Positions 2,663 through 47,342 of a stretch of DNA of 64,000 nt are shown in pieces. The notes under the pieces were generated by a model. That model was not told where the DNA came from and did no database searches. It saw only the letters and a list, made by a program, of their open reading frames with translations. The stretch comes from Ectocarpus siliculosus (lineage: Eukaryota; Sar; Phaeophyceae; Ectocarpales; Ectocarpaceae): NCBI GenBank assembly GCA_000310025.1, contig FN649758.1, forward strand, positions 1,956,526 through 2,020,525. Direction: 5' to 3'. How positions within the stretch are numbered: position 1 is the stretch's first letter; each line of letters begins with the position of its first letter. Position numbers and translations under genes: made by a program.

Positions 2663-5600
2663 TCAGCTCTGCGCGACGTCGTCAACGGAATCGACGGCGG
2701 CGTACAGCGCGAAAGCCACCTGGCTACCGAAGCCGGCCGCGAACCGCATCGCGTACTTGGCGGCATAGGCTCCCCCTTGACTTAGCCGAAGCTTCCCCTG
2801 CGGGAGAAAGGGGAGAGAAAACACGAGGGAGCGGGCGGGGGGGTTGGCGCGAGTGGTCGTTGGAAGGCGTCTCTCTCTCTCCTTTTCGGTGCAGTTGCCG
2901 TGCGAATCGATTCACAGCCCCTCTGATCCCCATGCCGCCAGCTTCCTCTTGGTGGACGTCCCCCGGCAAGTTTTTCCAATACACAAGTCGCCCAACGGGG
3001 ACATCAAAACCATCGATGGTCGGGCAAATGACGATGCTCACACTACGCTACCCTTGTATCTCCCTCTCTCTCACCAACGAGGGATCGACCGCAGGGTTGT
3101 TGGCTGTCGGCGGGATGATACCGCGATGAAGGACCTCAACTGCTGCCACGTCCTCGAAAGACACGCCCATAGGATGACCAGTGAACCCCTGCACCGTCAA
3201 AACAGAAAGGTGGGGGTTAAGGAACTGGTCAGTCAGTGAATGCAATGACAGGGCGGGTGACGCAGTAGGCTACAGCACGCTGAAAACGGGGGAATGAGTG
3301 GACGAATGACATGCATTGTGGTCATAGGGCCTGGTACTTCAGCCATCGAGTTGTAACCTCATGGAAGGTCTGTCGTGTAGGATAAAATCCGTAAGTTTCG
3401 AGAAGCAATCGTTCGTGATAGACACCGTCCCGCTTCAAGGGCGTCATCGTTTCCAGAAGCATGATACCCCGCAGAATCAACAAAAGATAACGGGTGTGAA
3501 AATCACAAAGATAAATTTCTCCGCTGTAGGGACAACCTTGTCTTTCGGGGCCTCAGGGCGTAGGCGTCTCTGCCCAGTACCATTTAGAAGCCGTACGGGT
3601 CCAATTGGCACGCAGTCCTTCTGTGGTGACAGGCTAGCTACCGAAACAAGGCGCCTGGTATGGTGGTACGCGCTACCAAAAATGAAGAGGAAAGCGTGCA
3701 CAGCCAAGTATGTTAACGTGCCACGACATGCGTGTGTGTAACGTTAAGTGTGCGTAAAGTTAGACAAGACATGCTGATAATGGTTGTTTTTTGGGAAAGA
3801 AAGACGTTCCAAAACACCTCGACACTAAAAGCGCCGAGATCGCGACAAGTTCGCGATCACCGCCACCCAACTCACAGAAATAACAACAGCACGCGCACAC
3901 GCTTCCATGACCAACTCAACACCTAATACCTTGGTGTTGATGATGACGAGTCGAGAAAGGAGCTCTTCCCCGAAGCACTGCCGCAAGGCCCACACCTCGT
4001 TGAAGGCGCAGGAGGCGGTGGGGGTGGCGTGTGTGCAGGTCTCGTGGGAGAAGTACACCCCCGACTCGGCTATTGCGTCCCGGCTGATGCCCCAGTTCCG
4101 CTCCATGGCCACGAGGAACCGCTGTTTGTTATTGCAGGTGTTAAGGACGGTCAATTGTAGTCTGTTTGTTACACGGCAAGCGTTTATTCGTCGAAAAAAT
4201 CGTTTGCCTATCATTGTTGGCTTTTTTGTTGGTCTCGTAGTTTCTTCGTCAGGAAAAATGCACGTGCAAGGGACCATGATCATGAAAACATTTCGCCATA
4301 AGCCAACAGCTGCCCCCCCCTACTGCCAGTAGTGCAGCATCGACTCTACCCAACGCTCTTTTCGACGGGCCTGCAACATCGCATGCACCATCGCCAACAA
4401 GCTATCTGTATCCCAAGATCACTTCAATACAAACCCGTTGGCGCTAAAGCAACTAAAACGGAGCACGAGGTCCACGTGACCGTCACAGGAGCATAGACAC
4501 GGGTGCAAAAAAACTCACACAACAACGGAAAAAAAAATGAGAGCCTTCCTCTGCATCCGAAAGAGAGGCTAGAGGTGGGGTGGGTCGGGCTTGTTAAACT
4601 AACCGAAACAGAAAGGGCGACGACAAGTACGGACATATAGAGGGCGCTGGGAAGGCTTGACGCACCTCTAGCTCGATGGCGATGTGGTGCTTGTCCATGG
4701 AGGCCCCGTGGTAGGCCGAGTTGGAGATCTGGGTCTCAAGCAACCTCGCCTGCTCCAAACAAGCAAAAAAATAAACAGCAGCAAGTCGCAACCAAAAAGA
4801 TTTACGTAAATGTATGCAGATGGCACCAACACAAAAACGCATACGCGTGGCATATATTTGCACATGATAACGAGTCCATCAAAGATAAGATGTGATCAGA
4901 CAGCTACATCGGCGCGGCGAACAGACACCAACGATCAGAGCCAACCCCGCCGCTAGCTCTTGGCAATGGTATGGTAGACGCGATGGCTATTGAACACGCC
5001 AAGGCATGCAATGACTATGATGACGCAGTGAGCCATGCTTATGCAAAGCGCCACGTCGCACGACCCCAACCGAGTTGGCTTCAACGATGTGTGCGTTAAT
5101 TTACCCGCCGCGCCCCCACTCCACCACCGTGTTGCCAGTCGTTGCGAACACTCCGCGACCCAAGCGCGGCAACAGCAGCTCCGATTCGTTCGATTGGCTG
5201 ACAGATTCCCAAGCCCTCCACACCTCACACCTCACTGGCGAACAAACCGGTTCCCAACTCCAGACATTTACCCAGAGCACACTACACAACCAAACAAGAA
5301 AGAACATGCATGCAGTCCTGCGTTGTTCGCGTGAGACCCCTTCCTCGGGTCGCCGCCCCAACGCACCTTCATCACCCCGTTGGTGGACGGCGGCGGCGGC
5401 GGCGGAGGTTGCGAAGCTCGGATTCCGACGGCTTCGCAGTGTCTCCGAGCGGCGGCCCCCTAAGTTTTTTTTGTTTTTTGCGTGTTGCCACATGGTTCCG
5501 AGACGGGAAAGATCCGAACGGCGAAAGCAAAAGTAGCGCGTGGGGAACAGACAGGTTCAATGGGGGAGAGAGAATGATAGGGTCTTCCGTGATTTCGACA

Positions 5601-8600
5601 TGCGCACGGGGGGGCAGGCAACATAAGGCGCGCGCGGGGCGAGAGCTACAGCACAAGACACCGTTTTGTGGGACGACGAAAAAGAGCGAGTGTTGCCGTC
5701 CTACAGTTGAGATCTGTTGCCTCAAGGAAGACAACACTTCGGGGATAGATCTACGGACGGTAAAAAGTGAAACTCCCGACTTCTATCCTGAGAACATTCG
5801 AGGGCCTTTACTTTACACGAGCCTTGTGCTTTCTATGCATACAACGTCGGTGGTGCGTACAAGTATACACCCGCGTCACAGACGGAACCATCGAAATCTT
5901 TCAGTGCCTTGAAAAAGCGGCGGCGGTTCTTAGGGCAGCGCCGTTTCGCTGGTCGGGCACGACGAACGGGCACCGGCGAGGTCCCTCGCGCGTAGCTGAA
6001 ACTATTAAAATTATTTCAATCAGCACAGCGATGACGAAAAAAACGCACTTTGGATGGACGTAAGCTACGGATCAGCTAGGGAAATATTTCCGAACTCCTC
6101 AATGCCGCCGGCCCTCAAGGCCAGGCTTCCTTTCTCCCCGACAAGTCGACAAATCTTGCACAACATTTTGTTTTGGGGGTGTCCAGACAGTGTGCCGCCC
6201 CCCACCCTCAGAAGAAAAGCGCAGCGCCGAAAAGTACCACCTTGCCGTCTAGTATATTAGTGCAACTAGGGTTAAGCATCGCCCCCCCCCCGCTCCCCTT
6301 GGGCGGGCGGGGGAGGCATATGCGGTGATGGAGGCGGGAGGGGAAGGTGATATCCGGAAGAGAAGAAAGATACAGGGGTGATGATGAAGTGTGTGTGATG
6401 GGAATGGTGACACGAAAATGCAAAAACGTCGCTGCTATAGGGGTACGCGCGAGCAACGAAGGCTGTGTACACGCTACCCTCCCCTGCGGTAGGCCTGCAA
6501 AATACGGTTGACGTGTGCTGCGCGTCTATGTTCGATGCTGTGAATCATTTTCAAAAACGTGTCGGGCTTTTCACCGCGATGGCGGCGGTTGCGCGTGACT
6601 AAAACCCGTGTGTTTCAAAGCAGGAAAAAAAAAAAACATGAGGGGAACAAACGAGATTTTTCCTTCGTGATGTATTGTTGTTGTGGAAAATCGGGCTTTG
6701 TCTCGTTGTGGACCTGCAAGGGCCCACTCATGACCGGGTGTATGACTGATGCGTACGTCCTTCCTCTTGTGACATGTTGTGTGCATGACCTAACCCACAG
6801 TTCTCGTCCCACAGCAGTGGGTACTGCTGTATGCTCTGCCAGAGCAAATAAAAGCACCCCCGATGGGGCGGCGGAGGAGGATATTTACCCCGATGGATGC
6901 ACTCGCAGTACTCCTTCATGAGCTCTTGATTTCTAGTTCCGAACCGTAGACCTGATGTACAATTTTGTTCGCACCGTTCCAAACCTAGGATATGACCCTA
7001 CCTCGAACCCAACCCGCACCAGGTCTGAAGCATGCCTTACCCCCGACACTCGTGCCAGCAGCATTGGTGAAGCGTGCGAATGCCTCCTTCTTCGACGTCG
7101 GGTCGACCTTCCCCAGGGAAATGCACTCGTCCGCAAACAGGTGGATGCCATCCATCCATCCACCTGTTTGCGGACGGGTGTATCTCCCTGGGGGAAGGCC
7201 GACCCGATCTCCAATAAGGAGGCCTTCGAACGCTGCACGAACGCTGCCGGCACTTTCGTCGGGGGACAAGGCGTGCTTCAAACCTGGTATAGATTTGTTG
7301 TATGGCGGATGGATCGGCATGGTTTGGGTCCGGGAATTCGTTGGGGGTGATGAAGGTCACCAACACCAACTATTTCCGGTTGGACTAGACACGCACATGG
7401 ATGGGACATACGGCGATCAACCCCACCCAAACCGTGCAAGCACGCCTCGGCAACCCGCGGCGGTAAAAGGTAGGTTGCTGTGTGCGGCTGGCGGTGAAAA
7501 GCTAGGTTGCTGTACAGGTAAGGCGGGACAGGTGAAACGCTAGGTTGCTCTACGTGTAAGCCTAAGCCACGACGCGACAGGGGCTACGGGCTCGGTTGAC
7601 GTGCACCGTTACAGGGGTAGTGCTATGCAAAGGTTGCTGTACGGTGGAAGCTGGGTTGCTGTGCACGGGTTGCGCCTGCCCAAGAGGAATATTCCGAGAA
7701 ATAGTAGTCCGACATGGAGGCCACCACTTTCGACCAAGCAGTGACGTGCTCGACTTGAGGCACAGTTTGCAGACTGTTGTGCACACGACACCGGCCGCAA
7801 TTCCCCCCGCTTTTCGTCGGGAACGAAAGAGAGACGCACTGCAGCAGTAGGGTGTTTTGTCTCGTGGCATGCGGAGACTTGGTTGCTCGGTTGTCGTGTG
7901 TGGCGAGGGTGTGCAGATGTACCTAAAAGGACTAGCCTCTTCGCCGAGTGTATGTGAATGGCCTGCACTGTCAACAAACCGGGCTCTGATTGGTGCAGCC
8001 GTGGTAGATCTCGGAGACGCGACTGTCTTCCCTCGCTAGCGCTGCGCTACGTCCGCCCCAAGAGCGCGCGGCACGGCGGGAGGGGCCTCGCAACTCAGGG
8101 CCATCGGTAGATGCAAGTCTCGCCGCGAGGCGAGGTCTATGGGCGGAGAAATGACAAAAAAAGGGCTTTAGACGCACGAGCGGCCCAGGATTGGAATCCC
8201 TGAAAGCTCGGCAGCCCTCAGCCCGCAGGAAGTTCGCCTATTGGTCAAATTAACATGATCCTCTATTTAATGCGTTTCAAATTGTTTTCGCGTATTACTG
8301 ACAACTTTTTCTCAAGTTTTCGGTGGTGTAGCACATACTTCAGAAGGTTTTCAGCCTCGGTGCTCGCCTCCGACTCATGACCCCCCAGCTCGCTGTATTG
8401 CCTTCCCCATTGTGACGACGCCCAGGACAAACACGCCTTCATCACGAGAAACCCGTCGGGCCTGCTTCCCTCCCAAGACCCCCAGTGATGACACAGGTCG
8501 GTCTTGTTGAGCGTCGCTAGGTACATGCCCGTGGTGTCCTATCCAATGCCTTGAATCATAGACAAATCATAAAAAAAAAACTCGAGTATCGCACATACCT

Positions 8601-10368
8601 CCGTCTCTAACACCATTCCGATACCGCCGGCCCCGAGTAGCATCCCGTTTCGCCTCGCGTCGAAGGGCAACGCGGCGTCGGAGGGGTCGGCGGCGATGCT
8701 AGAGGCTCCGAGGGCGCGGAAGCCGTTCCCGATCCACGGCAGGAGGACCTCCCCAGAGGCATCGTCGCCCGCGATCACCACCATGCGCTCGCACCGCCCG
8801 ATCTGGATCATGTCCTATTCATAACGTACACAAGGGGGGGGGGGGGGGGGGTACTCATGTGTTGCATGCCTTTTAGCGGTTAGACCGTTGACCACGCGAC
8901 CTCGAGAGGACGGACCATTGTTCCCACAGGACCGATCACCGATGGCCGATCGTTCCTTCCTACGTTTGCCAAAGGTGGCTCAAAATGCGTTCCCTGGTCT
9001 ACAGTATCTATCGGGGGGGGGTGTTCTTGCCTAGTGGTTGACCGTTACACATGGGGGGAGGGGGCAGCGATGTTGAAACGCAACATCACCGAAAGCGAAA
9101 TACGTAGGCCACAGCAAAAAACAACTTACAGAGCAAACGAAATCACAATCATCAGTGTCACAACAAGAGAATGAATACACGCGCGCGATAGGCGCGGCTT
9201 GCCGAAGCCAGGACCAGCACGAGAGCTAACAACGAACGAGTTTCGTGCTACAACAATACCGTACAAACCTGGGCCATGGCGACGGCGAGGGTGGAGCCAG
9301 CGCACGCCGCGTTCGTCTGCATGTTGGGCCCACGGGCCCCGACCATCTGAGCCAGCTGAGCGTTGCCCAGGACCAGCACTCTTATTTTGGCGGCGGTAGC
9401 GGCGGAATAGAACGACGGGTCGGTTGGTTCGGAGGTTGCGTCCGGGTTTCCAGTTGGCGTCGCGAGAGGCGCATGGAGGCAAGAGGACGGGCGGAGCAGA
9501 ATCCTCAGAGGGCAAACAACACCGACCTAAGGATAGCGATCACTGGCCTCAAGAACAAACTCAAGGGTCAGTGCAGCCCTCGATGACGCACCGCGTGAGC
9601 ACGTGGGGCGACTGATTGTGTGCTATTTTTCGTCAAGCGCAAATTGATTCCTGTCCTTTTGCTGATGCACACCTACCATGAATCAGGCGGCGGATCTAAG
9701 TGCAACGGTGATTTGTGCCATCGTGAATCACGCGGTGTATCTGACTGCGATGGGGACAGCTACCACGTTCTTAACCGAAATCTCTCCATATCCTGGCGTA
9801 ACAAACACTGGATAGCTTCTCGTTCTGGCGGGTTACGACTCCCCGGCGATTTACGCAGAAGACAGGAGTGTTATTCTTATCTCGAAGATGGGTTGTTTGC
9901 GGTTTCACCTGAAGAGGAACTTGCGGTCGAACTCGTAGTGGATGGGTTCCTCTTCGCGTGCGGTTGCGAGGGAGCGAAGATCGACCGTGCTCTTGGTGAG
10001 CATCGCCTGAAGACGACAGCACCCAACATCAAGGGGGTCCACATAAAATGAACGGGCACGTGGCACGTCAGCTTCGTGGGACCTACCCTTCCAGCTGCCG
10101 GAAAACGAAACATGACCAATAGAAGTGGCAACAAGAGAAGAAAGCAAGCCCACCAAAGCCGCAACACCAACGAAAACACCAACAAGAAGAACGACGACAA
10201 CGACCAAAGCAGCACGAACAACGACGATAACATCACCATCCAACAAACCCAACCACAACGACAATCCAATCATCAACAACAACCCACACCAGCAATGGCA
10301 ACAACAACGACAGTACCATTCCCATATTCATCGTCATCAACAACAACGACCACAACGACCAAAGCATC

Positions 10369-10444
<76 letters not shown>

Positions 10445-13400
10445 GCAACAACCTACTGAGAGCGCACGTACATTCTCAAGCCCCTTGAGGGCTTCCTCGT
10501 CCTCGTCGGAAACCTTTCCGTTCGGCGATACGGCCGACAGCCTCTCCCTCAGGGCCGCCACCAGCTGCCCCTTCTTAGCCCGGGTGATGCATCGACTGCG
10601 CAGGAACCTCATCACCTGTGCGCGGGGGAGGGAGGATAAAAAGGCGTCGAGTGTACGTGAACAACCTGAGTCGAGTTGCACCACCGCCCATATCGGGGCA
10701 ACCCTTGATGAGTAGTCAAGTCCCAGAAAGACTGTCGGCTTAAACGCAACCCGCAAAGTCGAAAGGAACACACGCTGTTTTTGAAACAGAAAACAGGAGT
10801 TGACTTGCGGCTGGGTCTTGACTGTCTCCATGCGATGACGCTGCTTGCTGCGGCGGTATCAGTGTCGTCGCATCAACAGTCGGTTTGATTGACATCGTTT
10901 TGGTTGTATCCCCACGCTCCCTAACTTCCTTCTGCAGGCCCCCCTTTCTCCTCTGCTGCGCTTGACCTCGCATGATTGGCAAGACTGCCATCGTCACAGT
11001 CAGCCTTCCGAGTGACCTGTAATGCCATCGTCGCCTCAAGGCACGACCCAAGATACCACCAACGCAAATCATCATAACAAGGCAATCGACAGCATCGATG
11101 ACACGCAGAAAAAAAAAAAACGCGACCACCCATGACACTACCTAGCACTTGGTGTGATCGACACAAATGTCAAACCAACCACCAACCAACCACAACCACA
11201 ACAACAACGACAACAGAAACAACAAGACGGTTCCTGACCTCTCCGATGGCGGCATCCAGGGCGGGGAAGCTGGAGGCGTACATGACGCCGGTGGTGTCAC
11301 GCATGTGCCCCGGGAGCATCCAGCCCCCCTCCCCCTCCCCCGTAACAATGCCCGCGTCTTTCAGAGCCTCCAGCCCGGCCACCACAGCCACCTTAGCCAA
11401 CCCGGAGCAGAAAAAAGGTAGCAAATAGTTGGGGTGAATCATGCCACGGGCGTCAGGTACCCGGTGGGCGAAAGAGATCTTCGAGAGAATACTCGGCGGA
11501 TGACATGGTTGCGAACAGAGGGCTCGGCGACTGGAAACCCGCTGGTTGTTTGAACATGCAAACACACCAGCCGCACCGACTCCCGAAACGGACACAATCT
11601 ACGTCTGGGGGAGGCTTCCTGTTTCGCGCGGGGATGACGGCACCAATGCTCTCTTCGGCGTCCGCGAAATGATTTGGCAAACGATTGGGGGGAACCTGTA
11701 CACGTTTTATTTATTAGCAGCAGCAGCAGCAGCAAGCAGCACCTTAACGGCCTTGTCCATGGTGGCGGCGATGCTGGGAGACACGCCATAGAGGGCCATG
11801 TCGAGGTTACCCATCGTGGCGGCGAGCTTGATCGTCTGGCTCGGCTTGGAGATCGGGATGCGCAGGGGGGGCTGGCCGTCCGGCTGCCTCTTGACCTGAC
11901 GAACCGGAACCAATCGCAAGCGCGCGCGACAGCGAGCACACTATGCGGGTAAGAACCTACGAAAGAATGGTCCACGAGGATTATTCGTTGCAAAATATTC
12001 CAGGAGCACACACCACCACAACAACAAGGACTCCAACACACACCCTTCGACTGTGGATGTATCTCCAAATGGTAGTCGGTCCCATGGTTGGAAGTACATG
12101 AAAAAAAAAAAAACGATGGAAAAAACATCATCAACAGAGAAGAGGCCGAGGGCAAGTTGGAACGCTTGGCGCCAAGCAAATCCCGGACCTGTCGAGGGGG
12201 CGCATCAGCTGAAAAGCGGCAGAGTCGAACCCAAAACCTCTTGCACAACACACACCCGCATCCGAGCGGTTGGAAACGAGGAAAGCGCTTCGCCTGGACA
12301 ACAAGTTTTCTAACGTGCTTCGCGCTCCGGGCGCACTTAGGGATCTACCGAGCGACGACTATTCAACCACAACCCGAGCAAAAAGAGGAGTATTGCGGTG
12401 GTAAGACGATGAAAAATTCCTCGAAATTAAATGCCCCAAACGAAATACAACACGCGAAATGAAACGGGACGGCTGTGCCCGGAAGCAGTGCGCAGCGGTG
12501 ACAAAAAGCTTGTCTCCTATAGCACCAGCCTCTCTCCAGCGATGACGTCTGCTCGACGTACATAACATGTACATGTGGTAGCATTCACATGTAGCAATAT
12601 TACAACATGGCTAAGTCGAACGAAACAAGGGGTCAGGCTACGCTCTGCAGGTTATGCTCAGCTCTCCGCCGCGTTCTCTCTCTTTTCATCTACTCTTTCT
12701 CTCTCTCTCGCTTATCTGCTAGACGAATATACACATGTAGTAGCACACAGTAGTTTTCACATGTGATCGTCAATGTACAATGTTGGCGACACAGAAGAAA
12801 GCAAGGGTTTAGGCTAGGCTCTCGAGGTTATGCTCAGCCTCTACTTCTTGGTATTCTCTGTCTGACTGTCTCTGTCTCTGCCTCTGTCTCTGTCTCTCTC
12901 GGTTTGTCTGTCTCTCTCTCCCTCTATCTTCACCTGCACGACGTTCTTCTCCACCAAGGCGGTGGTGCTACCGGGGCTCAGCTTCTTCACGCAACCCTGC
13001 CCTGCCAGCAGCCTCGCCAGGTTGTCCCGCTCGAACACCTCCTCCTGCCCGGGGAGCCCGCACGCCACGCCGGTCACGACCACCCTCGGCAGTAGCAGCG
13101 CGCCCAGCTTGCCGCCAGCAGCCGGGGACGTGGCCGCCGCCGCCGCCGCTGCCGCCGCCGCCTCCTTCGCGGCGAGAACGGTCTTCTTCTCGCTACTGCC
13201 CGCCGCCGCCGCCGCCGTCGGAGGAGCAACTTTGGCGGCCCTATTCGCGAGGCTGCTGTCCGAAGAAGGGGCTTCTGAGGGCACGGCCCCGTTTGCCACC
13301 GGTCGCGCCTTCTCTTCCTCCTCGTCGTCCTCGCCGCTGTTGCTCGTCTCCGTCCTGCTCCCCATTGTCGCAGTCGTCGCAACCTCTTCCTCCCTATCCC

Positions 13401-16400
13401 CAGCCCCCAACGCCTCCTCCTTCTTAACAAGGGACGGAGCGAGAGCCCGCCCGCCCCGCGCCCGCGGCGCCTCCTTATCCCGCCTACCGTACCCTCTCAC
13501 CCCATCGCCACCGATCCCTCTCAAGTAGAACACCCCCGGGAAAAGCCTATCTAACGGAAACCCGGGGACAAATACAAAACCACCCCCCCCTGCTCCTCCT
13601 CCCGCGGAAGGCGAAGAAGAGGACGCGAGGGCGTGGGCGTGGGAGCGCGCCGCGAGCGCGGCGTCAAGCTCCGCCGGCGGCAAGCGCTCGCGATCGGCCA
13701 GTCGCTCCGACAGGCCCACCGCTTCCGCTATCTTGGCGACGCTGAAGGTAGGCGTGGCTGCTGCTGCGGCGGCCGCCGTCACAGCGGTAGTGTCTCGGAA
13801 GTGCAGCTCGTACATGGTGGCCACCGCGCTGAGGGTTTGGGCAGCAACGGCGTTGCGGGAAGAGGGTTCATAAAAGACAAGTGGCCAACAAACCGCAGGG
13901 CTACGTGTTTGCTTCGGGTTGGGTTTCTGAGTGTGCTTTTCCACAAACCTGAGAACCGGCACGACATGCTCGTTCGTGAGATTCCTTGCTCTTCGTGGGC
14001 GACTCCGGTCGCGTTTCAAAACACCTTGATACTCCCATAGAATACTGCCGGGGCGAGTAAGCTTCATACTGGTAGGAACAAACCGGCCGCACTCGCTGTT
14101 GACAGTAATCTTCCCTTCCGAACCGAATCAACTCTTGACCTCCTCCCAGGCGCGCGACGCGAAAAGAGCTCTCTCGTCGCACCTACAGCCCGCGTACAGC
14201 TGTAACCTGACCTTCCTCTAGACGTTGGTCTGTTCCTGCCCCACCCCGTTGGCCTTCCAACTCTTTCCAACACTGCTTGCTCAACAACAACGACGAAAGA
14301 GACGATGAACACAAGCACTCATACAACGACACGTTGGTAGTATGCCCATACACGGTAACACTCTCTTCAAGGGCCACTCGGGAACCAGCGCGCGAGTACC
14401 CCCATCGTCCCTATACTTCCACAAACAAGAGTGGCAATACCAGATAAGCATTTACCATGTATCACCAGACACCAAACATGTTTCAACGGCCTTGAAATAG
14501 CATTTTCAGGAAAATTGTGACAATAACAGAGTTTCAACCGTTATTTTCTCACCCGCTGCCGTACGAGAACACGAGCGCGGTCTCCCCCTCCAGCGCCGCC
14601 CCGCGGGCGCACACCAGGCAAACGATGTTGGCGAACACCGAGGCGGTGTAGGTGTTGCCGATCTGCTTGCTGAGGCGGCACCCCGGCTCGACCTTGTTCC
14701 GGTAAGCCCCCGAGGACACCCCGGCGAACGCCTTGAGGGCCTTCTCGAGATCGCGGTCGTCGTACGTCTCCTGCGTGGGCGTACAAGACCACAACGGGGG
14801 GGGGGGGGGGCGGGGCGGGGCGGGGGCGTTCGCTCGACAAAAAAGGATGATCACTTGGATGGATTCGTGTAGATCAGAAAGGGACCGAAGCAAGGGACGG
14901 GAAGGACGGAAGGCAAGGTGTGTGCCATCTTCTTCCGGACCTCCCCCTTCGGTGTTTCTAGCGCAACTCGGATATCTTCTAGTGAGTGAGCATTAAGCAG
15001 CAGCAGCAGAGGAAGAGGATTGTCTGTCACCCTAGACCCCCCCGGGACCGCCGATTGGCCGGACGGGACAAATCGCATCCCCTTTTGAAAGAAAACTTGA
15101 TCGTTACAACTCGCTCAACAGTTGTCGCGACACGGACGGGTGCGTGCGCGCCCCTTCGTGGGCAAGCACGCGCAAGCACCTCCTAGTTGAGGAGAACGGC
15201 TGACAAACTTGCTGCGGCAACCCCCCCTCCCAGCCCTTTGCACCCGGTCTCCTGAGTAACTCCCTGCTACATCATCACAACATCACAACAGGACCGCACA
15301 CGCCCACACACCCGCGCTGTTCCAAGCAGCAATTGCGCGTTGTGCACGGGAGGGGTCAGGCACTTCCCGGTTCCTCTCAGGTTTTTACACCGTTCTCGTT
15401 CATCAGCTTGGTTTGTCAGCACGGTGGTCTCACTCAGAAAACTAGAGGGATGCTACACAACGCTCTTTAGTGGCCCCTCCACCCGCCGGCGTGGCAGCGC
15501 ATTTTCTTACCGTTGTCTCGCCAAAAAAAAACTACTGCCGTACAAGCGATTGCTCAGCCGCAGTGAGCGGCCTCCTCGCAACTGCAGAAGGAAACACTCA
15601 CGGGCAACCCGCCCCCCGCACGACGGTACGCACGCACCTCTGCGGGCACGTCGAGCCACTTCCCCAACGCCTCCTCCTGCCCCTCCCCCAGGGGTTTCCC
15701 TGTCCCCTTGAGGCGTCTCGCGTCGGAGAACGCCATCCTCGCGAACGATTTCTGCACCAGCTTGTTGTAAGGGGAGTGGCAAAGCACGTGCTCGACGTCG
15801 CCTAGCACGAACGGTGCCCGCTTGTCTCCGCCTCCCTCCTCCGCCTCCCCGTCCCCGGCAGAGGCAGCGGCAGCGGCGGCAGCAGCGGCGGCGGCCGTCT
15901 TTTTCGCCGCAAGGCGGTTGTAGCAGCTGTCGAGGGCGCGCAGGTAGCACGTCTGCGACAGCTGTCCATTCACCTTCACGTGCACGAGGAAACCGAGGGG
16001 GGGGTGGGGGGGGGGGGGCCCCCTTGTTTGGGGGTGATGCCGGGGGGGGGGAAAGNNNNNNNNNNNNNNNNNNNNNNNNNNNNNNNNNNNNNNNNNNNNN
16101 NNNNNNNNNNNNNNNNNNNNNNNNNNNNNNNNNNNNNNNNNNNNNNNNNNNNNNNAGGGGGTGATGCGGGGGGGGGCGATAGGGTGTCCATCCGGTGGGT
16201 ACACTGACAAGTTCACCAGGCATACTGCCGAGTTTCGGGCACAACAGCGTGTTAGAGGCGAATACTCGCGCCACGACACCCACGGCATACCAAACTTTCA
16301 CAAACGCAGTCCTTGCAGCTTTTATCGATATGTATGCATCGTTCTTGGACGTCCTTCACGAAACAGCCGTGGACTTTGCATGGCACCAGGGGCACGATCC

Positions 16401-19188
16401 AAGAGCAGGCGCTATAAAAAAAAAAAACAGTCCGTTAAGTCACCCCTATAGCTCCAGTCCCCTGTAGACTGACACCACCCCTATAGCCCCAGGCCGCTAC
16501 TACCAGCCGCACGCACATGCGCGTCACAACCTCGCTCTTCGCCCGGCTCACCCGCGGGTACTCCGAAGACATGTCGGGCTTGAAGAAGTCCCACACGTCG
16601 CAAGCGTATGATGCCCGGGTCTTCATGTTGATCACCAGCGGGGCGTCTGGCCCTACCAGGACAGCCACCGCGCCGCAGCCCCCCGTAGGGCGTGCCGGCC
16701 CCTGTCGCAGCACGAGATAAAAAAGGCGGCAAAGACAAGGTAGCGATACGGTGATCGATGGTGTGAGTGCCGGAAGCATGTGTACGTCTCTCGCTCTTCC
16801 TTCCCGATCCACAGGCAAGGACAGACGGAAGACGGGGAGGGGAGTTAAAGAAAAGCGCCAGATGTTCAGAACAGAGGGAGAGCAACACATCAAGCACGGT
16901 ATGCTCAGAAGAGGGATAGTGGCATATCAAGTAACACACGCTACACACTGTACAGCAGGACGCTCGAGTCACAAGTTTCACACAGGCCAAGCATGAAACC
17001 TGGTTTCACATGACACCATAGGGCTGGCGCTGCGCGGCTTGCAAAGCGACACATTTCTCCTACACACCTCTGCGTAGACCGCGATATCCGCTGCCACCAC
17101 GATGGCGTAGCGTCCGTCCCAGCCGCTGCTCTCGACCCAGGCGACGGCGTTCAGGAGCGCGGCCGTGCCTCCGTAGCAGGCGTTCACCGTAGTCACCCCC
17201 TCGATGTCGTCGTTGCCGCTGTCTTCGAAGAGAGACATGAGGACGGTCTTGGTTGACTTGGACTTGTCGATCAGGGTCTCGGTTCCCACCTTTGAGGGGG
17301 GTGTTGATGCGGCAGGAACACGAGGGTGCGATGCACAGACATAGTGGGAGAAGATGGTGGGGGGAGAGAGATGCCAAGACAGAGGGGAGGCAAGGAGAAA
17401 GAGAGGGCGGGAGAGAGAGGGAGGTGGAGAGGGAGGGAGGGAGAGGAGGAGGGAGAGAGAGAGTCAGGCCGAAAATAGCGGAGATCTCGTTAATGGTGGT
17501 GGTGACTACGTACACATCTTCCGCGAGGGCGGCTCCGGTCGAAGGCATCTGGGACAGGATGGCGAAGGATACAAAAGAGACAGGCAGAGAGAAGACAAGA
17601 CGACGCGTGCGCTCTCGCGAGCAAAACCACCGAACGTTCACACGAAAGGACACAACCTCACGCAACTCTCGGGTACAAAACAAGATAGAGGAAACACGAC
17701 GAGTCTGTGTCGAGTGGTCATCTACGGTTGCATGAAAAATCGACAAAACATGACGACTTCCTACCCGACAACGCCACGTATGGGTCTCCGTAGAAGAGAA
17801 AACTCAAAATCAGCCAGCCAATCACACCTCGATGCGGCCGATGCGGTCCTTGGGGACGTCGTACTTCTCCAGCAGCTGGGCCACCACGGTCAAGCACATC
17901 GAGTTGATGTCCTCTCGGTCCCTGTCGTCATTGTTTCCCACGAGCACGGCAGGGCGGGAAAATTCGGCATGGCTTGACAAGATAACATCGAACGGCAACG
18001 GCTTCTGCGAGTGTACCTTCAACTGGTGGCGTGTGTGCCTGACCAGGATGTAGCTTGACCACTGTCTTGACCTTGACTAGTGTTGGTCGTGTCTACATCA
18101 CGTTGTTCTGCTACGTCAAACAGCTGGTCAGCGTTGAAGGATGCATCCACCACAAACAACAAACGAGAACATCGCTCTGCACAACCTCCACCACACTCTC
18201 TCCCGAAGGCTAGAGAGTGCCGTGGAGGGTTAGAGAGACATACAGGTAGGCAAACAAAGACAGACGAATCCAAAATATTGCTCGCCCTGGTCTTGGCATT
18301 CACGTGTAGCACGCATGCCAGAAGACGCCCCCTACCAACCAAACGCATGGCGCCTCCAACCCCATGAAAGTAGGAAGTTCGAAAAAGACTAGACAACACT
18401 TTCACGTCCGCCCCAGCATGAGTACTTCATCCCAATCGCGCCCATCTCCATCCCCCCACCACACCCCTACCGACGAAACCAACCCTCCACGGTACAGCAG
18501 CACGCACGAACGGCATCGCCTCAGAGTGTTTCGTCTTCTGGGTTCACATATATTTTCTTTTGTGCTCACCCGGTGAAGGCCATCGCCTCCTGGCCCAGGC
18601 CGATCGTGTACTTCCCGGCCGACACACCGTTCGCCACCTCCAGGTCTTCCTGCTCGGGAAGGGCCGCGCGGCGCAAGCCCGCGTGTGTGTCGCCGACAAC
18701 AAGCGAGGGTCCGTCATACATAATCAACGACACTGCTGTTGACGACGCGCATTGATCCGTCGAGAGCTTAACTTGCTACCTAGGAGGGGCGTGACGCGGA
18801 ATGCTGTTTGTACTCCCGCAGCTTGCAGAGACGTGTGACTAGTTTTCGCCAAGCGCTTTTCCGGAAATCAGACAGCGGAAAGGGTGGTCTGTCACCGTGA
18901 TCCCACCACTGCCACATGATCGTGCATACAGAGGCTGTAGAGTAGCGCCCGGCTGCAGAGCTCTACAACATGCGACATGCCTCCGTGCACGGCGACGGAA
19001 AGACACCGCCCCACCTGCTCCGCACGGGCCGCGTTCGCATGCTCTTCTTGTTGTTGTTGGTGGTGGTGCGCATGTTTGCTTACCTGAGAGACAAAGGTGC
19101 TGGGAAAGTAGACATCGGCCGCCAGGATGCCGACATTGTCAGGCCTGCCCTCGCCGCCCCCTCCCCCCGCCGGCGCCGACACGCTCAT
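2663..19188 (-). CDS. HMG-CoA synthase fused to beta-ketoacyl synthase
   Basis: Nineteen exons: 19188-19084, 18649-18570, 17921-17828, 17289-17068, 16701-16552, 15973-15638, 14770-14553, 13828-12934, 11895-11743, 11391-11239, 10615-10457, 10006-9909, 9380-9269, 8814-8599, 5459-5367, 4749-4666, 4121-3930, 3188-3075, 2797-2663. All junctions are GT-AG and in phase, giving about 1202 residues. Residues 1-518 are HMG-CoA synthase, which condenses acetyl-CoA with acetoacetyl-CoA in the mevalonate pathway. Residues 519-646 are an Ala/Ser/Glu-rich linker. Residues 647-1202 are a thiolase-fold ketoacyl synthase. The start ATG was chosen because the next residues ([12 protein letters not shown]) match the usual N terminus of HMG-CoA synthases; no targeting peptide is obvious. 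Least certain are exon 15 (a 31-codon Pro-rich exon after a weak acceptor) and the donor of exon 11. An intron gap (16056-16155) lies between exons 5 and 6. No acyl carrier or acyltransferase domain is seen. Confidence 0.9.
7019..7288. repeat. Large imperfect palindrome (MITE-like) in an intron
   Basis: The left arm (about 7019-7150) and the reverse complement of the right arm (about 7156-7288) match with scattered mismatches. For example, ccaggtctgaagcatgcc pairs with ggcgtgcttcaaacctgg, and tccgcaaacaggtggatg pairs with catccacctgtttgcgga across a short centre. Read outward, both arms encode similar peptides with a shared KEAF.R.TNAAG pattern. The palindrome lies in the 3.1 kb intron between exons 14 and 15 of the fusion gene. 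A foldback or miniature inverted-repeat element is likely. Confidence 0.75.
7470..7672 (+). repeat. Degenerate GGTTGCTGT repeats
   Basis: The core (a/t)GGTTGCT(g/c)T recurs at irregular spacing, near 7471, 7503, 7542, 7631 and 7661. The copies differ in the following bases. It sits in the same intron as the 7.0-7.3 kb palindrome. Confidence 0.5.
8263..8538 (-). other. Unexplained ORF inside a ketoacyl synthase intron
   Basis: An open stretch of about 87 codons follows an ATAG at 8543-8540, on the same strand as the fusion gene and just downstream of exon 14. The peptide is not low-complexity (Trp-rich, with [13 protein letters not shown]). I do not recognise it. It cannot be read straight into exon 15 without a further donor site. 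It may be a fragment of a transposon, an alternative terminal exon, or chance. Confidence 0.3.
10368..10450 (+). repeat. (CAA)n microsatellite
   Basis: An almost uninterrupted CAA tract of about 27 units lies in the intron between exons 11 and 12 of the fusion gene, starting a few bases from the exon 11 donor (GTAGGT at 10456-10451). It reads as Gln or Leu runs in other frames, but these are not coding here. Its closeness to the donor could affect splicing if the length varies. Confidence 0.9.
12850..12932. repeat. CTGTCT/CTCT-rich simple repeat
   Basis: Interrupted TCTGTCTC repeats sit immediately downstream of the exon 8 donor of the fusion gene (GTGAAG from 12933, minus strand). On the minus strand they read as a run of Arg, Asp, Glu and Gln codons beyond the conserved sequence; the in-phase donor after VEKNVVQ shows this stretch is intronic. 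Confidence 0.7.
13480..19188 (-). other. HMG-CoA synthase module of the fusion
   Basis: The module spans residues 1-518 and has the full length of the eukaryotic enzyme. The catalytic Cys is at residue 131 in NACYGGTAA, the general base Glu is at 97 in VGTETLID, and the catalytic His is at 283 in [12 protein letters not shown]. Other family blocks are [83 protein letters not shown] and the C-terminal [11 protein letters not shown]. An Ala run at about residues 243-254 is an insertion in a surface loop before the His block. All three catalytic residues are present, so the module should be active. Confidence 0.95.
16003..16180. repeat. Poly-G minisatellite with assembly gap
   Basis: Runs of eight to twelve G flank a 100-base N gap (16056-16155). 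A short motif, gggggtgatgc followed by a G run, occurs on both sides. The gap is inside the intron between exons 5 and 6 of the fusion gene, and exon 6 ends about 30 bases away. The true length is unknown. Confidence 0.8.
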
Positions 19189-21218: not shown

Positions 21219-24200
21219 ATGAAGTATCTGGACGAGCCTAGACTTGCCTACTGGAGCAACTTCCTGCGGAGCGTGGAGCTTGGGGACAGGCTGCTGTCCG
21301 TCCGCACGGACGCCTTTTCGTGTGAGTGTTGTAGGAGAAACACAACGGTGTAGCATCAGGACGTCGTGTGTGGTCTTACTGCTGTACATCTATGCGCCCC
21401 CAAAACTGAACATTACAAACATACCCAAAGCAAAACATGCCCAGCACTAAATATATTTTGTTTATGGTATCCCCGACGAGAATTTAGTTCGCGCAGTTTT
21501 TTTCAAAATGACGTATACTACACGTCGGTACGTTTGTACAGGACCTCGCCCTCAAGCCGTTAGTGATGCCGAATCTAATGTTCCAGGCGGACAGACATTC
21601 AGTCGTCTTGTGGCGACACCCACCGAGCCAGTGGATAAATGGTTGACACACAGCAACCATGGGCTCTCCTTCTTTTGTGCTTTTTCGTTCCTACGTGTGT
21701 GTGTTTGGGCGATTCTCAGCGTGGGCTAACTATCCTCTTTGCGCCCGCCTCCCCGCACTTGTCTTGAGAGTACGTACCACACAACTGCCTCTTCCAAAAT
21801 GGTTCACTTTTTTGTAGGCATGCCAGTGAAGTGTCTCCGCTATTTAGCGTTTCCTCAAGGCGTTTTTTGAGGGCGTCTCCGCATCAGCCAATGATGGCAC
21901 CGATACTCAGTGAGGGCGGTGGGTTTGAAAGCGTTTCGTTCAGAGATTTCCTCACGCGAATCGGTCCGTCTAGCGCAACCTCTTGCTTGGTACCACAGCA
22001 GTGGGGTATAAGTCGAGCTTTGAGAAATGGTTTGTTTGAGGGGTGTGCGATGAACACCAGTCTCGCGGTGGTACCCAGCGTTTCCATTTCGCGGGGCCTC
22101 GTGGCCTTATCGTGCACGGCAAAAGTTCCTTTCGAAACATCTCGCCGTGGTCTGCTGCTTCCCACTTGCTCCACGCCGCATCACGACTCCCTCCCATAGG
22201 GCTAATCTCGAAGCAAAGCGGGGGGAGTCTCCCACTTCTATCGCCTCCTCTACTTGAAACCCTTGGTTGTGTTGAATGCTGTACAGTCAGTATAGTTTTA
22301 CTATAGTGCGTACGAATTGTTCGACGCAGCAGTACACGAAGCGCGATCCCGCAGGATCATGATCACCGACAACACAAACCATGGTTGGGTGATCTGTTCT
22401 TCTCTGTGCTGCGCGGGGGTCGCTGACCCGTGGCCAATGTCCTCTGCCAGACCTACCTCGTTCACCACAGAGTAACGGGGCGAGGGATGGCGCATGAACG
22501 TACGTTACGAGAGATATGCTCTTTTCTACCACAGCAGTTGGAACGGTTTGTCGCGAAGTTCATCGGAAAACGTTGGCGAGAACTCTCGGCACAGGCACAC
22601 CTTCGGCCGTCTGTTTGAACGGGGGCCACCGTATTAGCAGATAATGCCGCACAGGGTATGTGTGTCTATAAGGTAGCTTTTAATCTCTTCTCGGTATTTA
22701 CAGACACAACCAGAGTTTTTACACCACTGCTTGATGGCAACCCCATGAGAAGTTTCTGGTGCCCAGTACATCCGTCCAAGAACAGAACCGTACCCCTGCC
22801 GTCGAACCGTCAAGTGTACCGCACTTGGCATGCCTTTACACAAGCTGTTTGAAGTGCTTTCGATCAGGAAGCTAGGGGGCGCGTTGCCTGACGCTGACTT
22901 TTTTTATCTGTTCCAACGACTAGACTCAAAAAGGCGGTTTGGTTGTTGCTGTACACGTTTGCATACGCATGATGCAGCCGCCTTGCACCAACGTTGCGCA
23001 CGAATGTTGATTCAAGCCTTTTTGGGGTGGTTTTGTGCTTTGTGTTGCCAACCCATACATCAGTATTCCAGAAGCTATCCGCCGACGACGAAACGAGTTG
23101 TGATTTTTGTTTTTTGAACGGCATTCGCCTGCGCGTGCGTGTTCCGGGTGGATGGATGGGAGTTGGTTTCGTTTGCCCAACTTCGTCCCCATTTATGGCA
23201 GTTGTTTGTGCTTTGTGCTCTGTGGGATGTATGCATGACATCAACGAAAAGGTAACTTGTAGGATATGGCAATACTTGTGGGAGACCTCGCCAACTTGGA
23301 AACCACGACTCTCAAAACATTCCCCGTGATTTCGTGAGGATGCAAGGGTGCGCCTCTTCATGTTGGCTGTCGTGGTGGACCGGCCAGCTTTTGGTTATCA
23401 AACCCCGCATTGAAGGTCTATGTCTACCCTAGTAGCTTGCCGATGCAGTAAAAACTGAATTTGAGTCGAGCTCCGAATTCGAGCCACGGGCTTTCTGCTT
23501 GCTTCACGGGGATCGTGTGTCTTCCTCAACTTGTTTTTTCTGCCAGCAACCTTGACGCTTTGAGATGTTTGATTTACGCGTACCCTGTTTTGGCCCCCCC
23601 GCCACGGCGGAAGCTTGTCTCATCAAACCAAGGGTGCGGAAGAGGGGGAACTGGGACCGACAACACCTTTCAGCCATCTCACCACGCAACAGCCCCCCTC
23701 TCTTTTTTTTGACAACAACGAACACCGCCACCACCACTCGCAGGCAAAAAAGCCGGCGACGACAAGCGACTGTCCAAGGAACTCGAGCGCCAGCTCAGCG
23801 CCTCCCTACCGACCCCGTCCCGGTCATCATCAGCGCCCTCCGCGGCCTCCGCCGCCGCCGTTACTCCGACGACCACCACCCCCGCAGCGGGCGGGTTTAC
23901 TGCGGGTGGCGGCGGCGGCGGCGCGGCGGCGGGGGCGGCCTTTGGCACGTCCCCTAGCTTCGGGGTGTTGACCGATGTCGGGGTGCGTCGGACGCTGGTG
24001 GACCTTATCTGCACCATGAACGCCTCCTTCCCGGACTACGACTTCAGCGGTGTTAGGCCGGACAGCTTCGACAAGGAGGCCAGCGTCAGCCTCGTGAGAA
24101 ATAAGGTGCGCAGGCGGCGAGCAGCTTGGCGTTCTTGCGACGACGGGGACGCCTCGAACATTTGGGGGCCTTATTCTCTCGCCCGCCCCTTCCCAGATGT

Positions 24201-24993
24201 TTTTGCAAGTTATTTACTATTCAGACAGCACGTCCACGTGCTTCTTGTCCTCGAACAGCATTGCAACGGTCGTGGACCTAATCGAGTACAGTTTGTTGTT
24301 TGTTTTTCTCACGAAAAACCGTTCTCCCCGTGTCCAAATGACGGCACCAAAATGCCCTATTCTCTACAATGGCCCTAATAACCCTTGATTTTGTCGTTTT
24401 CTGCGTCGTGTTGGTGTTTTTTGTCCGTCTGCCGTGCATGCGTCTTTCTCGATCAGGTCAACGCCGCCCTTGCGGAGGTGTCCGTGATACACAACAAGAT
24501 ATTCCTGGAGAGCTTCTGGGCCGACTTGGACGAGGTGATGACGCTCAAGGACTGCGAGGTGAGCGTGCGTCTATAAATCGGGACTATTCTACACAATCTC
24601 CTATTGATAGGTTGCTCTTGTGCGTTTGCGTGTGATAAGATTTAGGTGCTTTGCTTCTTTTTTTCGCCATCGTCTGGGAACCATAGCTAGTTCTAACAAC
24701 AAGAAGACGGAACGCATCCGACTGAGCTACGCTTCGGCTAGTCGGTATTTTTTTTCTTTTTTGGTCCTCTGTGGAAAGGAGGTGATGACACTCACGGTTC
24801 GCCGTGTGGTTGATGTTGCCGCCGCTGCTTTGTTTTTCGAATGAATGAGCTTCTTCTTCCCGCGGAAATCACGTGGTAAATTATTTGATGAATTGGACCT
24901 GATTCTTCGTTGCTATCGCCGCCGCTGTTTCCTCTTTTGTGGAATGGATGAGGTCTGCGAATACTGTTGGGTCCGGTTCTTACTTGTTGCTGC

Positions 24994-42780: not shown

Positions 42781-45045
42781 CTGAGTGGGGAGCAAGTAGT
42801 AGTGGGTGGAGCTACGGTGTTGGTGGGCTTCACTGAAGCTGTGGTTGATATTGGTGGTGGTGTTGTCAGGCGCCACTGCATGGCGGGGTCAAGGTGTCGC
42901 GCCGCCAATGGGATTACGCGGGTACCTCGGTATGTATGCGCCACATCATGTGGTGGTGACTCGAGGAGATGGCATGGTTCACCTGGCGATTTCAGGACCA
43001 CGGGTGGCGTCCACGTTTTCACTCTAGCGCAAGACGCGTGTTATCGAGAGCACGAACTGGCCACGTGCCGCAGGTCTGTCCTTCCCGATTTGTCAAATGA
43101 AGTGGTTCGACAGAGAAATGTTGCCGGTGACGAGCCAAGGGCGGAATCAGAAACCGAGCGGAAAGTTGGCCCCTTCGACAATCCTACGGACCAAAACTTT
43201 CCATTCAGTTCCCCTACCGGTTGTCTCCGGCAGCACGAGCAACAACCCGTTGGTTCCACGTGGGCATGCTCTACTCACAGCCTGGTTTGGAAAGCTGGGA
43301 AGTTCCGAGGATGACGACATTGTGCAAACCCGTACATAATTGACTCCCTGTCTCCGTTGGCGCCAACCTATCGACATTGCAATTCCGTGCCTCAGTGTGC
43401 CCCACGCACTGTACGAGAGTCCGCACCCTATCTTGCTCGCGCACGAAATGCTTGTCGGAAACACTGTCGCCTTTTCCCTTGGGAGGGTGTATTTAGGCGC
43501 CATTTGGGTTCCCTGAGGCCCTTCCGCGAAGAATGAAATGCCTGTGTGTTGACGAACTCGCTACGGCGGCTATTTGTTTTCTGTCTAGTTTGTTTTCTCT
43601 TCTGTCGAGTTGCTCACACGCACAGTGCAGACCTTCAGCAAGCGATTATAAAATCATGGGTTGAATACAGCCACCGCAAAGTTCAACGTCCGGCGTTTCT
43701 GCTCGACAACATCCGGAAAAGTGGTCTGTAGGCTACACGTTTGATCGTCCCATTTGTGTGTGAGCGAGGGGGGCACTGAGAGAGACTGAATGTGCGCAAG
43801 AAGACGCAACACATGATTTGCGGGTGGCCTACAGCGCGTAGTTCGGAAACTCCGGCATGTTGTTGGGGAGGAACAATTTGGGCTTGATGGCCGGACATAC
43901 ATGTCATCTCACGTGTGCTTCGCGCAGCTTTCCACGCGTGCAGGCCGTTCAATTGCACATAGACAGCATCAAGGCCACGCCCCGTGACGTGGACTCTTGG
44001 TCCAATGTACGCGCATGGTAAGGGCATTCTTTTACATGCATGCATTTCTTCACTCGATCAAACCAACATAGCCAGAGGGGGGTGATGTTCATACAGCGGT
44101 TCGCCGAGAGCGGGAAAATCATCATCATCACGACCGCGAAGCAACTGGTGGTACGTAGTTTTAAGTCGCACCAACAATTGGTTCACGAGTGGAGTCTTGA
44201 TGTTGCCGCGCCTGGACTCTACATCACGCGTGAGTAAACGGGGCACCCAGCTATTCCCATCGTTCAACATTCGGGTCTCCCATGTGTCCTACGGAAAACA
44301 GTAGTCCACTTCTAAAACTATTTGGCTACTCCTTGTGAAGCATTACTGTAGTTCAACACAGGAAAAAGTAGATTGTTTGCACCGCTACAAAGCTCCGACC
44401 AACCGGCTGCACCTGAATCGCACCAAATAGCGAGAAGATCTGGTTCAACGATACGCCCCTGAAAACACAAAGCTTCCGTTGACAACGGAACAGGAACGCT
44501 GGGAGGGTGGGCGGGTGGACGAGCAGTACCGCGGATGTAGGTGATCTCCAGGAACGCCAGCGGCCTACGAAAGCAGCAAAGACCGCCCACACCGACAACC
44601 ACCGCGGCGACACGTAGCGTTCGCGAAGAACACCCTGGGAGACGGTGGCCATCATCTTTCGCCGAAATGCCCCCCCTCGGTCCATTAAGGATGCAAAATT
44701 CTTGTCCTGCTCGTGTGGGCCTTTCCTGTCGCTGCTGTTGTTGCCGTTGCCGTTCGTGCCGTTGTTGTCGGTTTCGTTGCTGGTGCTGTGCTGATGTTGG
44801 TGCTGGTGCCGACGCTGATGTTGTTACTGCTGCTGCCTCCGCTGTTACTGCCGGTGGTTGTGCTATATACTGATGGTGTTGCTGCTGTGGTCTTCGGGGT
44901 TGCTGGTGCTGGTGCTGGTGGTGGCGATGGTGCTGGTGTTGTCGTTGTCAGTTTTGCTCATGGCGCGGAGCAGCCACGCAAAAGGTGACACCGGCGGGCG
45001 TGGTTCCGGCGTGTAGGCCGGCCTCATCATCGCCATGCTGATTGC

Positions 45046-45151
45046 GTACCCATTGGTCCTAGGCACGGAAGTGGGGGTTTCGAAGGAGACGGTCGTGGCA
45101 TCGTCGATCTCCTTCGAAGCCCCCACCTCCGTGCTTGGGACCAACGGGTAC
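45046..45151. repeat. 44-bp imperfect inverted repeat
   Basis: Arms 45046-45089 and 45108-45151 pair with few mismatches (for example tcgaaggaga against tctccttcga, and gtacccattggtcct against gggaccaacgggtac), with an 18-base spacer. It lies within pseudogene C, about 70 bases from the N gap. Copy A begins inside the corresponding sequence and has only one arm in the window. Confidence 0.85.
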
Positions 45152-46886: not shown

Positions 46887-47342
46887 ATTGATCAATAATG
46901 GCCTCATCATGAGTGTCATCGTGGCATCCTCGGCGCACCGAAGAAGTGAGCCACACTCCCGATGACCACTACTCCTGCCCATCGCGTGACCCGCCTGGTC
47001 GAAGCGAAGACCAGGTTTTGCCAGTTCTGCGGTAAGCGAGACTCAAGTATAGGTGGAAGGAGGGGGGACCTTTCCCTCACTCGGGTTTCGATGTCAACCT
47101 ATTGCGCGCCCGTGCTATGAACTGACATCGCAACCGGAGTGAGCGAAAGCTCCACCCGCCCTCGACGTATATTTGGGTTCGTTTACCGCAGAGCTGGCCG
47201 AAGCTGGTCTTCGCTTCCACTAGGCGCGTCACGTGATGGGGAGGAGTATCGGTCATCGGAAGTTTGGCTCTTTTGTTCGTTGCGGCGAGGATGCCACGAT
47301 GATGCCAGGCACTTGATGGGGATGGGGCCGTTGTTGATCAAA
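46887..47342. repeat. Large imperfect palindrome carrying FYVE exon 1 twice
   Basis: The left arm (46887 to about 47105) and the reverse complement of the right arm (47342 to about 47109) align through exon 1, its donor and the start of the intron. Shared landmarks are ttgatcaataatggcc/ttgatcaacaacggcc, catcgtggcatcctcg, ctggtcgaagcgaagacc/ctagtggaagcgaagacc and ctcactcggg/ctcactccgg. The plus-strand arm keeps RFCQFCG and an intact GTAAGC donor with an ATG at 46961; the minus-strand arm is decayed. The centre is near 47107. Confidence 0.8.
46961..47030 (+). pseudogene. Orphan FYVE exon 1 in inverted orientation
   Basis: An ATG-initiated frame of 23 codons ends in TRLVEAKTRFCQFC, with the donor GTAAGC in the same phase as exon 1 of copy B. 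No exon 2 follows on the plus strand; the sequence runs into the palindrome centre. It is better preserved than the minus-strand exon 1 of copy C, so it was probably copied later or from another family member. Confidence 0.6.

Follow-up and report, generated by a model that had tools for sequence, protein, structure and literature searches.

In bacterial beta-branching cassettes, such as those with CurD and PksG, a ketoacyl synthase (KS) and an HMG-CoA synthase homologue work together as separate proteins, and a serine replaces the active-site cysteine of the KS. Proteins combining the two families in a single chain have been published for stramenopiles. Table 2 of PMC2705460 (PLoS One, 2009) lists a "Beta-ketoacyl synthase & hydroxymethylglutaryl-CoA synthase" for Phytophthora sojae, T. 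pseudonana and P. tricornutum (Ps128154, Tp260768 and P. tricornutum 16649), and that paper places it among 21 cases in which domain order is retained between the oomycete and the diatoms. PMC4052811 (Biotechnology for Biofuels, 2014) reports PF01154, PF08540 and PF00109 in the HMG-CoA synthases (HMGSs) of Nannochloropsis oceanica and Ectocarpus siliculosus. It also states that every other mevalonate enzyme is missing from N. oceanica, whose HMGS probably has a role outside the mevalonate pathway. In PMC6330534, Phatr3_J16649 is given as the HMG-CoA synthase of the mevalonate pathway (the same identifier is also printed there for HMGR); this is apparently the same gene model as the 16649 of Table 2 of PMC2705460. 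The accessible text of PMC2705460 and PMC4052811 gives no function for the fusion beyond the mevalonate-unrelated role suggested for N. oceanica, and that of PMC10174431 contains nothing about domain architecture. The HMG-CoA synthase-KS architecture is, therefore, already known. The original prediction for the E. siliculosus locus described below had suggested that it might be undescribed, and on this point is refuted by the reports of 2009 and 2014; its account of one gene with two condensing-enzyme domains, together with the introns, linker, motifs and mass, stands. The present analysis adds no more than the anatomy at residue level, the kin of the KS and the coexistence of the fusion with a separate HMG-CoA synthase gene.

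The window analysed is a 64-kb stretch of E. siliculosus DNA. Its minus-strand interval 19188-2663 was confirmed, at the level of the sequence, as one genuine gene for a predicted bifunctional HMG-CoA synthase and KS protein (Table 1). The model rebuilt from the sequence comprises 19 exons and 18 introns (18/18 GT-AG) in a single frame with no internal stops, and its predicted product has 1,197 aa and a computed mass of 124.6 kDa. The start at 19188, the stop at 2663, the 18 introns and the unbroken, stop-free frame initially proposed were all reproduced, and the protein near 125 kDa expected at that time agrees with the computed mass. An earlier model with 18 exons (1,166 aa) lacked the 93-nt exon 5459-5367, which was added because alignment to prokaryotic KS relatives exposed a short missing stretch; once this exon had been recognised, the 18-exon model was superseded and dropped. 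A run of Ns (16155-16056) sits within intron 5, away from the HMG-CoA synthase/KS junction.

Table 1. Features of the predicted HMG-CoA synthase-ketoacyl synthase gene, in window coordinates.
Feature	Position	Strand	Basis or remark
Whole HMG-CoA synthase-ketoacyl synthase gene	2663..19188; ATG 19188-19186, TGA 2665-2663	-	19 exons, 1,197 aa
Exon 1	19084..19188	-	gene model
Exon 2	18570..18649	-	gene model
Exon 3	17828..17921	-	gene model
Exon 4, contains HMG-CoA synthase E97 and C131	17068..17289	-	gene model, motif positions
Exon 5	16552..16701	-	gene model
Exon 6, contains HMG-CoA synthase H283	15638..15973	-	gene model, motif positions
Exon 7	14553..14770	-	gene model
Exon 8, junction exon: HMG-CoA synthase C terminus, linker and KS N terminus	12934..13828	-	gene model, shuffles
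Low-complexity linker, 130 residues (519-648), stop-free	13090..13479	-	translation, shuffles
Exon 9 (KS)	11743..11895	-	gene model
Exon 10 (KS)	11239..11391	-	gene model
Exon 11 (KS)	10472..10615	-	gene model
Exon 12 (KS)	9909..10006	-	gene model
Exon 13 (KS), contains C909	9269..9380	-	gene model, motif positions
Exon 14 (KS)	8599..8814	-	gene model
Exon 15 (KS), 93 nt: part closes the short gap relative to prokaryotic relatives, remainder a proline-rich insert	5367..5459	-	alignment
Exon 16 (KS)	4666..4749	-	gene model
Exon 17 (KS), contains H1077 and K1115	3930..4121	-	gene model, motif positions
Exon 18 (KS), contains H1120	3075..3188	-	gene model, motif positions
Exon 19 (KS), including the TGA stop	2663..2797	-	gene model

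The two halves meet in one unbroken exon of 895 bp (13828-12934). The translation bears out the earlier reading that the HMG-CoA synthase ends within this exon (C terminus at residue 518, codon 13482-13480) and is followed there by a 130-residue linker and the beginning of the KS (N terminus at residue 649, codon from 13089). The linker is encoded by a GC-rich stretch, and its 130 codons stayed open in 138 of 2,000 dinucleotide shuffles; it is also open in one further frame on the same strand and in one frame on the opposite strand, so that its openness alone is weak evidence. By contrast, the full junction exon (298 codons) was open in one of 2,000 such shuffles. The main argument for a single gene is that the ends of the two domains, each recognised by its match, share both an exon and a reading frame. 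An internal ATG at residue 557 (13365) lies within the linker, and a separate KS could start from it if misassembly or an error of the gene model had merged two adjacent genes. Even with the frequency of open shuffles for the linker, we consider such a merger highly improbable, because both domain ends share a frame and an exon that rarely stays open by chance, and because the combination has been published for other species (PMC2705460 and PMC4052811). The publication of the fusion in several lineages likewise argues against an assembly error at 19188-2663.

On the 18-exon model, three Pfam families matched one chain with scores above their cut-offs: PF01154 (280.6 bits), PF08540 (185.2 bits) and PF00109 (ketoacyl-synt; 60.7 bits, cut-off 20.8). 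The same set is found in one protein in the other stramenopile HMGS-KS fusions, according to PMC2705460 and PMC4052811. HMG_CoA_synt_N covers residues 15-188 and HMG_CoA_synt_C residues 190-473. The eukaryotic HMG-CoA synthase equivalog TIGR01833 (NCBIfam) was matched with 516.7 bits (cut-off 286.2), residues 16-473 being aligned with profile positions 2-428 of 457, and the synthase half scored 402.1 bits against the plant HMG-CoA synthase 2f82, compared with no more than 48.9 bits against the polyketide-type CurD and PksG (the best of these being CurD, with 48.9). The motifs E97, C131 and H283, which we take to be the catalytic Glu, Cys and His, are present and are held in common with eukaryotic HMG-CoA synthases (TIGR01833; 2f82). 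The synthase half is of the eukaryotic type and keeps the residues that catalysis would require. It differs from eukaryotic HMG-CoA synthases in that a KS follows its C terminus and in its alanine-rich inserts.

In the KS half, the PF00109 score comes from the better of two stretches covering profile positions 155-248, at residues 890-991 in the numbering of the 18-exon, 1,166-aa model. The C-terminal KS domain PF02801 was unlisted for that model at E values up to 0.001, and phmmer aligned the C-terminal region with FabF structures. The KS motifs C909, H1077, K1115 and H1120 are present and were conserved in four of four aligned relatives; C909, H1077 and H1120 presumably form the catalytic triad, with K1115 as a further catalytic residue. 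The active-site motifs are thus complete in both halves, as had been claimed, and the retention of the Cys, both His and the Lys would make decarboxylative condensation chemically possible. The best NCBIfam model for the KS was FabF (TIGR03150), with 107.4 bits, a score below the cut-off of 493.75, against 20.7 bits for FabH. FabF-type enzymes use acyl carrier protein (ACP) substrates, and the KS may do so too, since it is nearer to this type than to KAS III. NphT7 is of the KAS III type, and assignment of the FabF-like window KS to this type (the KAS III/FabH family) was rejected on the basis of these scores. A scan of viral contigs with the KS yielded one stretch and no relatives.

The relatives of the KS were sought by a pattern-based scan of a prokaryotic genome collection, which gave 314 confirmed stretches, the best 80 of which were used. 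At 76 of these 80 loci, the KS lies within a frame of at least 1,129 aa (2,943 codons at L028), many of the frames ending at contig ends; it is found in a broken ORF pair at two loci (L052 and L062) and as a standalone protein at two others (L023 and L034, both from Heimdallarchaeota). The three giant ORFs scanned (L018, L029 and L050) all have the order KS-AT-KS-ACP(3 to 6)-KR-DH, with a phosphopantetheinyl transferase in one, and L018, the only one tested on NCBIfam, scores above the cut-off of the PfaA model (1,131 against 1,010 bits). The L018 frame (4866-14594) is a Heimdallarchaeota PfaA-like megasynthase with a second KS. Within the phylum of L023, 45 of 227 genomes had a match to the KS at E values up to 0.001 (including 37 with E <1e-50); the strong match often lies in an open frame of more than 3,000 aa, but in four genomes in one of just 499-552 aa. 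The prokaryotic kin of the KS are mostly second KS domains of PfaA-like megasynthases, both bacterial and from Heimdallarchaeota; standalone copies, seen in Heimdallarchaeota, are rare. These enzymes (compared for L018 and L023) and the alga KS have about 38-40% identity over the KS length and the Cys, His and Lys motifs in common, but the prokaryotic KSs are either part of proteins with AT, ACP, KR and DH domains or standalone, whereas that of the alga is joined to an HMG-CoA synthase.

No HMG-CoA synthase was found near the KS at any of these loci, the best 80 of 314 (phmmer on the listed ORFs of at least 100 aa; tblastn, E up to 1e-3). A prokaryotic HMG-CoA synthase gene adjoining the KS was accordingly rejected (none at 80/80 loci), and gene neighbourhood lends the link between the two families no support. 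Six archaeal genomes were reached via the loci, and three of them had a match to the HMG-CoA synthase C domain (two over the cut-off), in no case adjacent to the KS; in G004, this match and the megasynthase share contig C7 and lie about 34 kb apart. A quick tree of 82 rows (L062 and L028 left out) placed the fused KS in an unresolved basal group. A more careful tree of 30 rows was built from the window KS, 20 of the 80 loci and nine of 12 further archaeal loci, the remaining three (L115, L118 and L119, two of them standalone copies) having no usable ORF. In this tree, the window KS falls on the archaeal side of a 100/100 branch, with an end branch of 1.99 at a place where long branches meet, and no claim of transfer is drawn from it for this reason.

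The search was extended to the 189-Mb genome assembly (492 contigs), in which a second HMG-CoA synthase gene, with the Glu, Cys and His motifs, lies on contig C11. The assembly also gave 87 matches to the light-harvesting family, as befits a photosynthetic eukaryote. Introns 1 and 3 of this gene are identical in place and phase to those of the fused gene (after residues 35 and 93); intron 2 has the same phase and lies two codons further on, and the later introns differ at least partly. Its last recognised exon reaches a stop beyond the C-terminal motif, where a possible splice donor overlaps, and no KS exon was found beside it by tblastn over 25 kb. HMGR matches were obtained on C9 and C461. 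Those at C461:145994-148113 are partly in long open frames (669 and 1,671 aa), compared with shorter frames on C9, and C461 is possibly a contig from another organism. Matches to the thiolase C domain were found at four loci. At C30:3496660-3497400 (L106), a pair of decayed KS fragments, of which one has an in-frame stop, resembles a degraded copy of the KS portion of the fusion; they were the only other KS trace found in the genome with a query of 279 residues from the C-terminal part.

Within the window, a dispersed repeat is present as two copies in opposite orientation (1-2408 and 42924-45111), with a longest gap-free piece of 323 nt at 85% complementarity; the copy at 1-2408 lies about 250 bases downstream of the stop of the fused gene. 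An ORF on the plus strand (23713-24375) carries a Maf1 regulator domain (70.9 bits, cut-off 28.9), and an inverted repeat with arms of 124 nt (85% complementary, spacing 139 nt) occupies 46916-47302. An Rfam scan of the 64-kb window gave no matches at gathering scores.

We infer that the KS and then the HMG-CoA synthase may act sequentially in one polypeptide, and regard this as a reasonable possibility, if somewhat short of an even chance. A malonyl thioester would be decarboxylated by the KS and condensed with an acetyl (or acyl) thioester, yielding a beta-ketoacyl thioester, and the HMG-CoA synthase, joined to it by a flexible linker, would add the methyl carbon of acetyl-CoA onto the beta-keto group, with HMG-CoA or a 3-alkyl analogue as the product. 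Decarboxylation of the malonyl group would drive a step that is unfavourable via thiolase. Acetoacetyl-CoA is the substrate of HMG-CoA synthase, and it is what the KS would yield on acetyl-CoA. The chemistry proposed for the KS would have an analogue in NphT7, which makes acetoacetyl-CoA from acetyl-CoA and malonyl-CoA and, with HMG-CoA synthase and reductase, gives a higher mevalonate output, according to PMC4857421. Given the thiolase C-domain matches at four loci, the KS is perhaps not needed for acetoacetyl-CoA. Sequential action is also disfavoured by the FabF/PfaA character of the KS, as opposed to KAS III, and by the missing link between the two families in the prokaryotic neighbourhoods seen.

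The destination of the product is a separate question. The fused protein could be an ordinary mevalonate-pathway HMG-CoA synthase, with a KS that merely boosts its supply of acetoacetyl-CoA. The HMGR matches on two contigs are in keeping with this, as is the apparent identity of the diatom 16649 with Phatr3_J16649, the naming of which as a mevalonate HMG-CoA synthase in PMC6330534 pulls against a non-mevalonate role. Nevertheless, we find it somewhat unlikely, because N. oceanica is described, in PMC4052811, as keeping the fusion without the remaining mevalonate enzymes, and because a second HMG-CoA synthase gene with intact catalytic motifs is present in the same genome here. On these two grounds, we lean away from mevalonate alone, and the product may feed a non-mevalonate route.

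The pairing of a KS with an HMG-CoA synthase, and the kinship of this KS with domains of PfaA-like megasynthases, are also what would be expected of a beta-branching enzyme, in which the KS would supply acetyl-ACP and the HMG-CoA synthase homologue would add it to a polyketide. The CurD and PksG cassettes have this pairing in common with the fused protein, but as separate proteins. Such a role is distinctly unlikely, given the intact active-site Cys at the position where the cassette KS has Ser, the far higher score of the synthase half to the plant enzyme than to CurD or PksG, and the scan of eight further window ORFs, in which no ACP or enoyl-CoA hydratase was seen nearby; membership of these cassettes was rejected on the first two counts, the synthase being far nearer to the mevalonate type. 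It is also unlikely, if less so, that the halves work independently and that their common polypeptide serves solely to co-express or co-locate them. The long, low-complexity linker would suit such an arrangement, as would the missing neighbourhood link between the two families at the 80 prokaryotic loci (best 80 of 314), but the published occurrence of the combination in Nannochloropsis and a brown alga as well as in two diatoms and an oomycete suggests a functional tie.

Returning to sequential action, its fullest version is a single polypeptide that would make HMG-CoA or a branched 3-alkyl homologue from malonyl-CoA and acetyl-CoA for a non-mevalonate pathway of stramenopiles, its KS having arisen from the second-KS family of PfaA-like megasynthases, which Heimdallarchaeota have as well; with all these parts taken together, it is tentative and rather unlikely. 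If the KS does feed the HMG-CoA synthase, the fused protein would provide an irreversible, malonyl-driven entry to HMG-CoA in these algae, and a natural design for isoprenoid engineering. The fusion is reportedly kept in Nannochloropsis without the other mevalonate enzymes (PMC4052811), which would make an alternative use of HMG-CoA directly testable.
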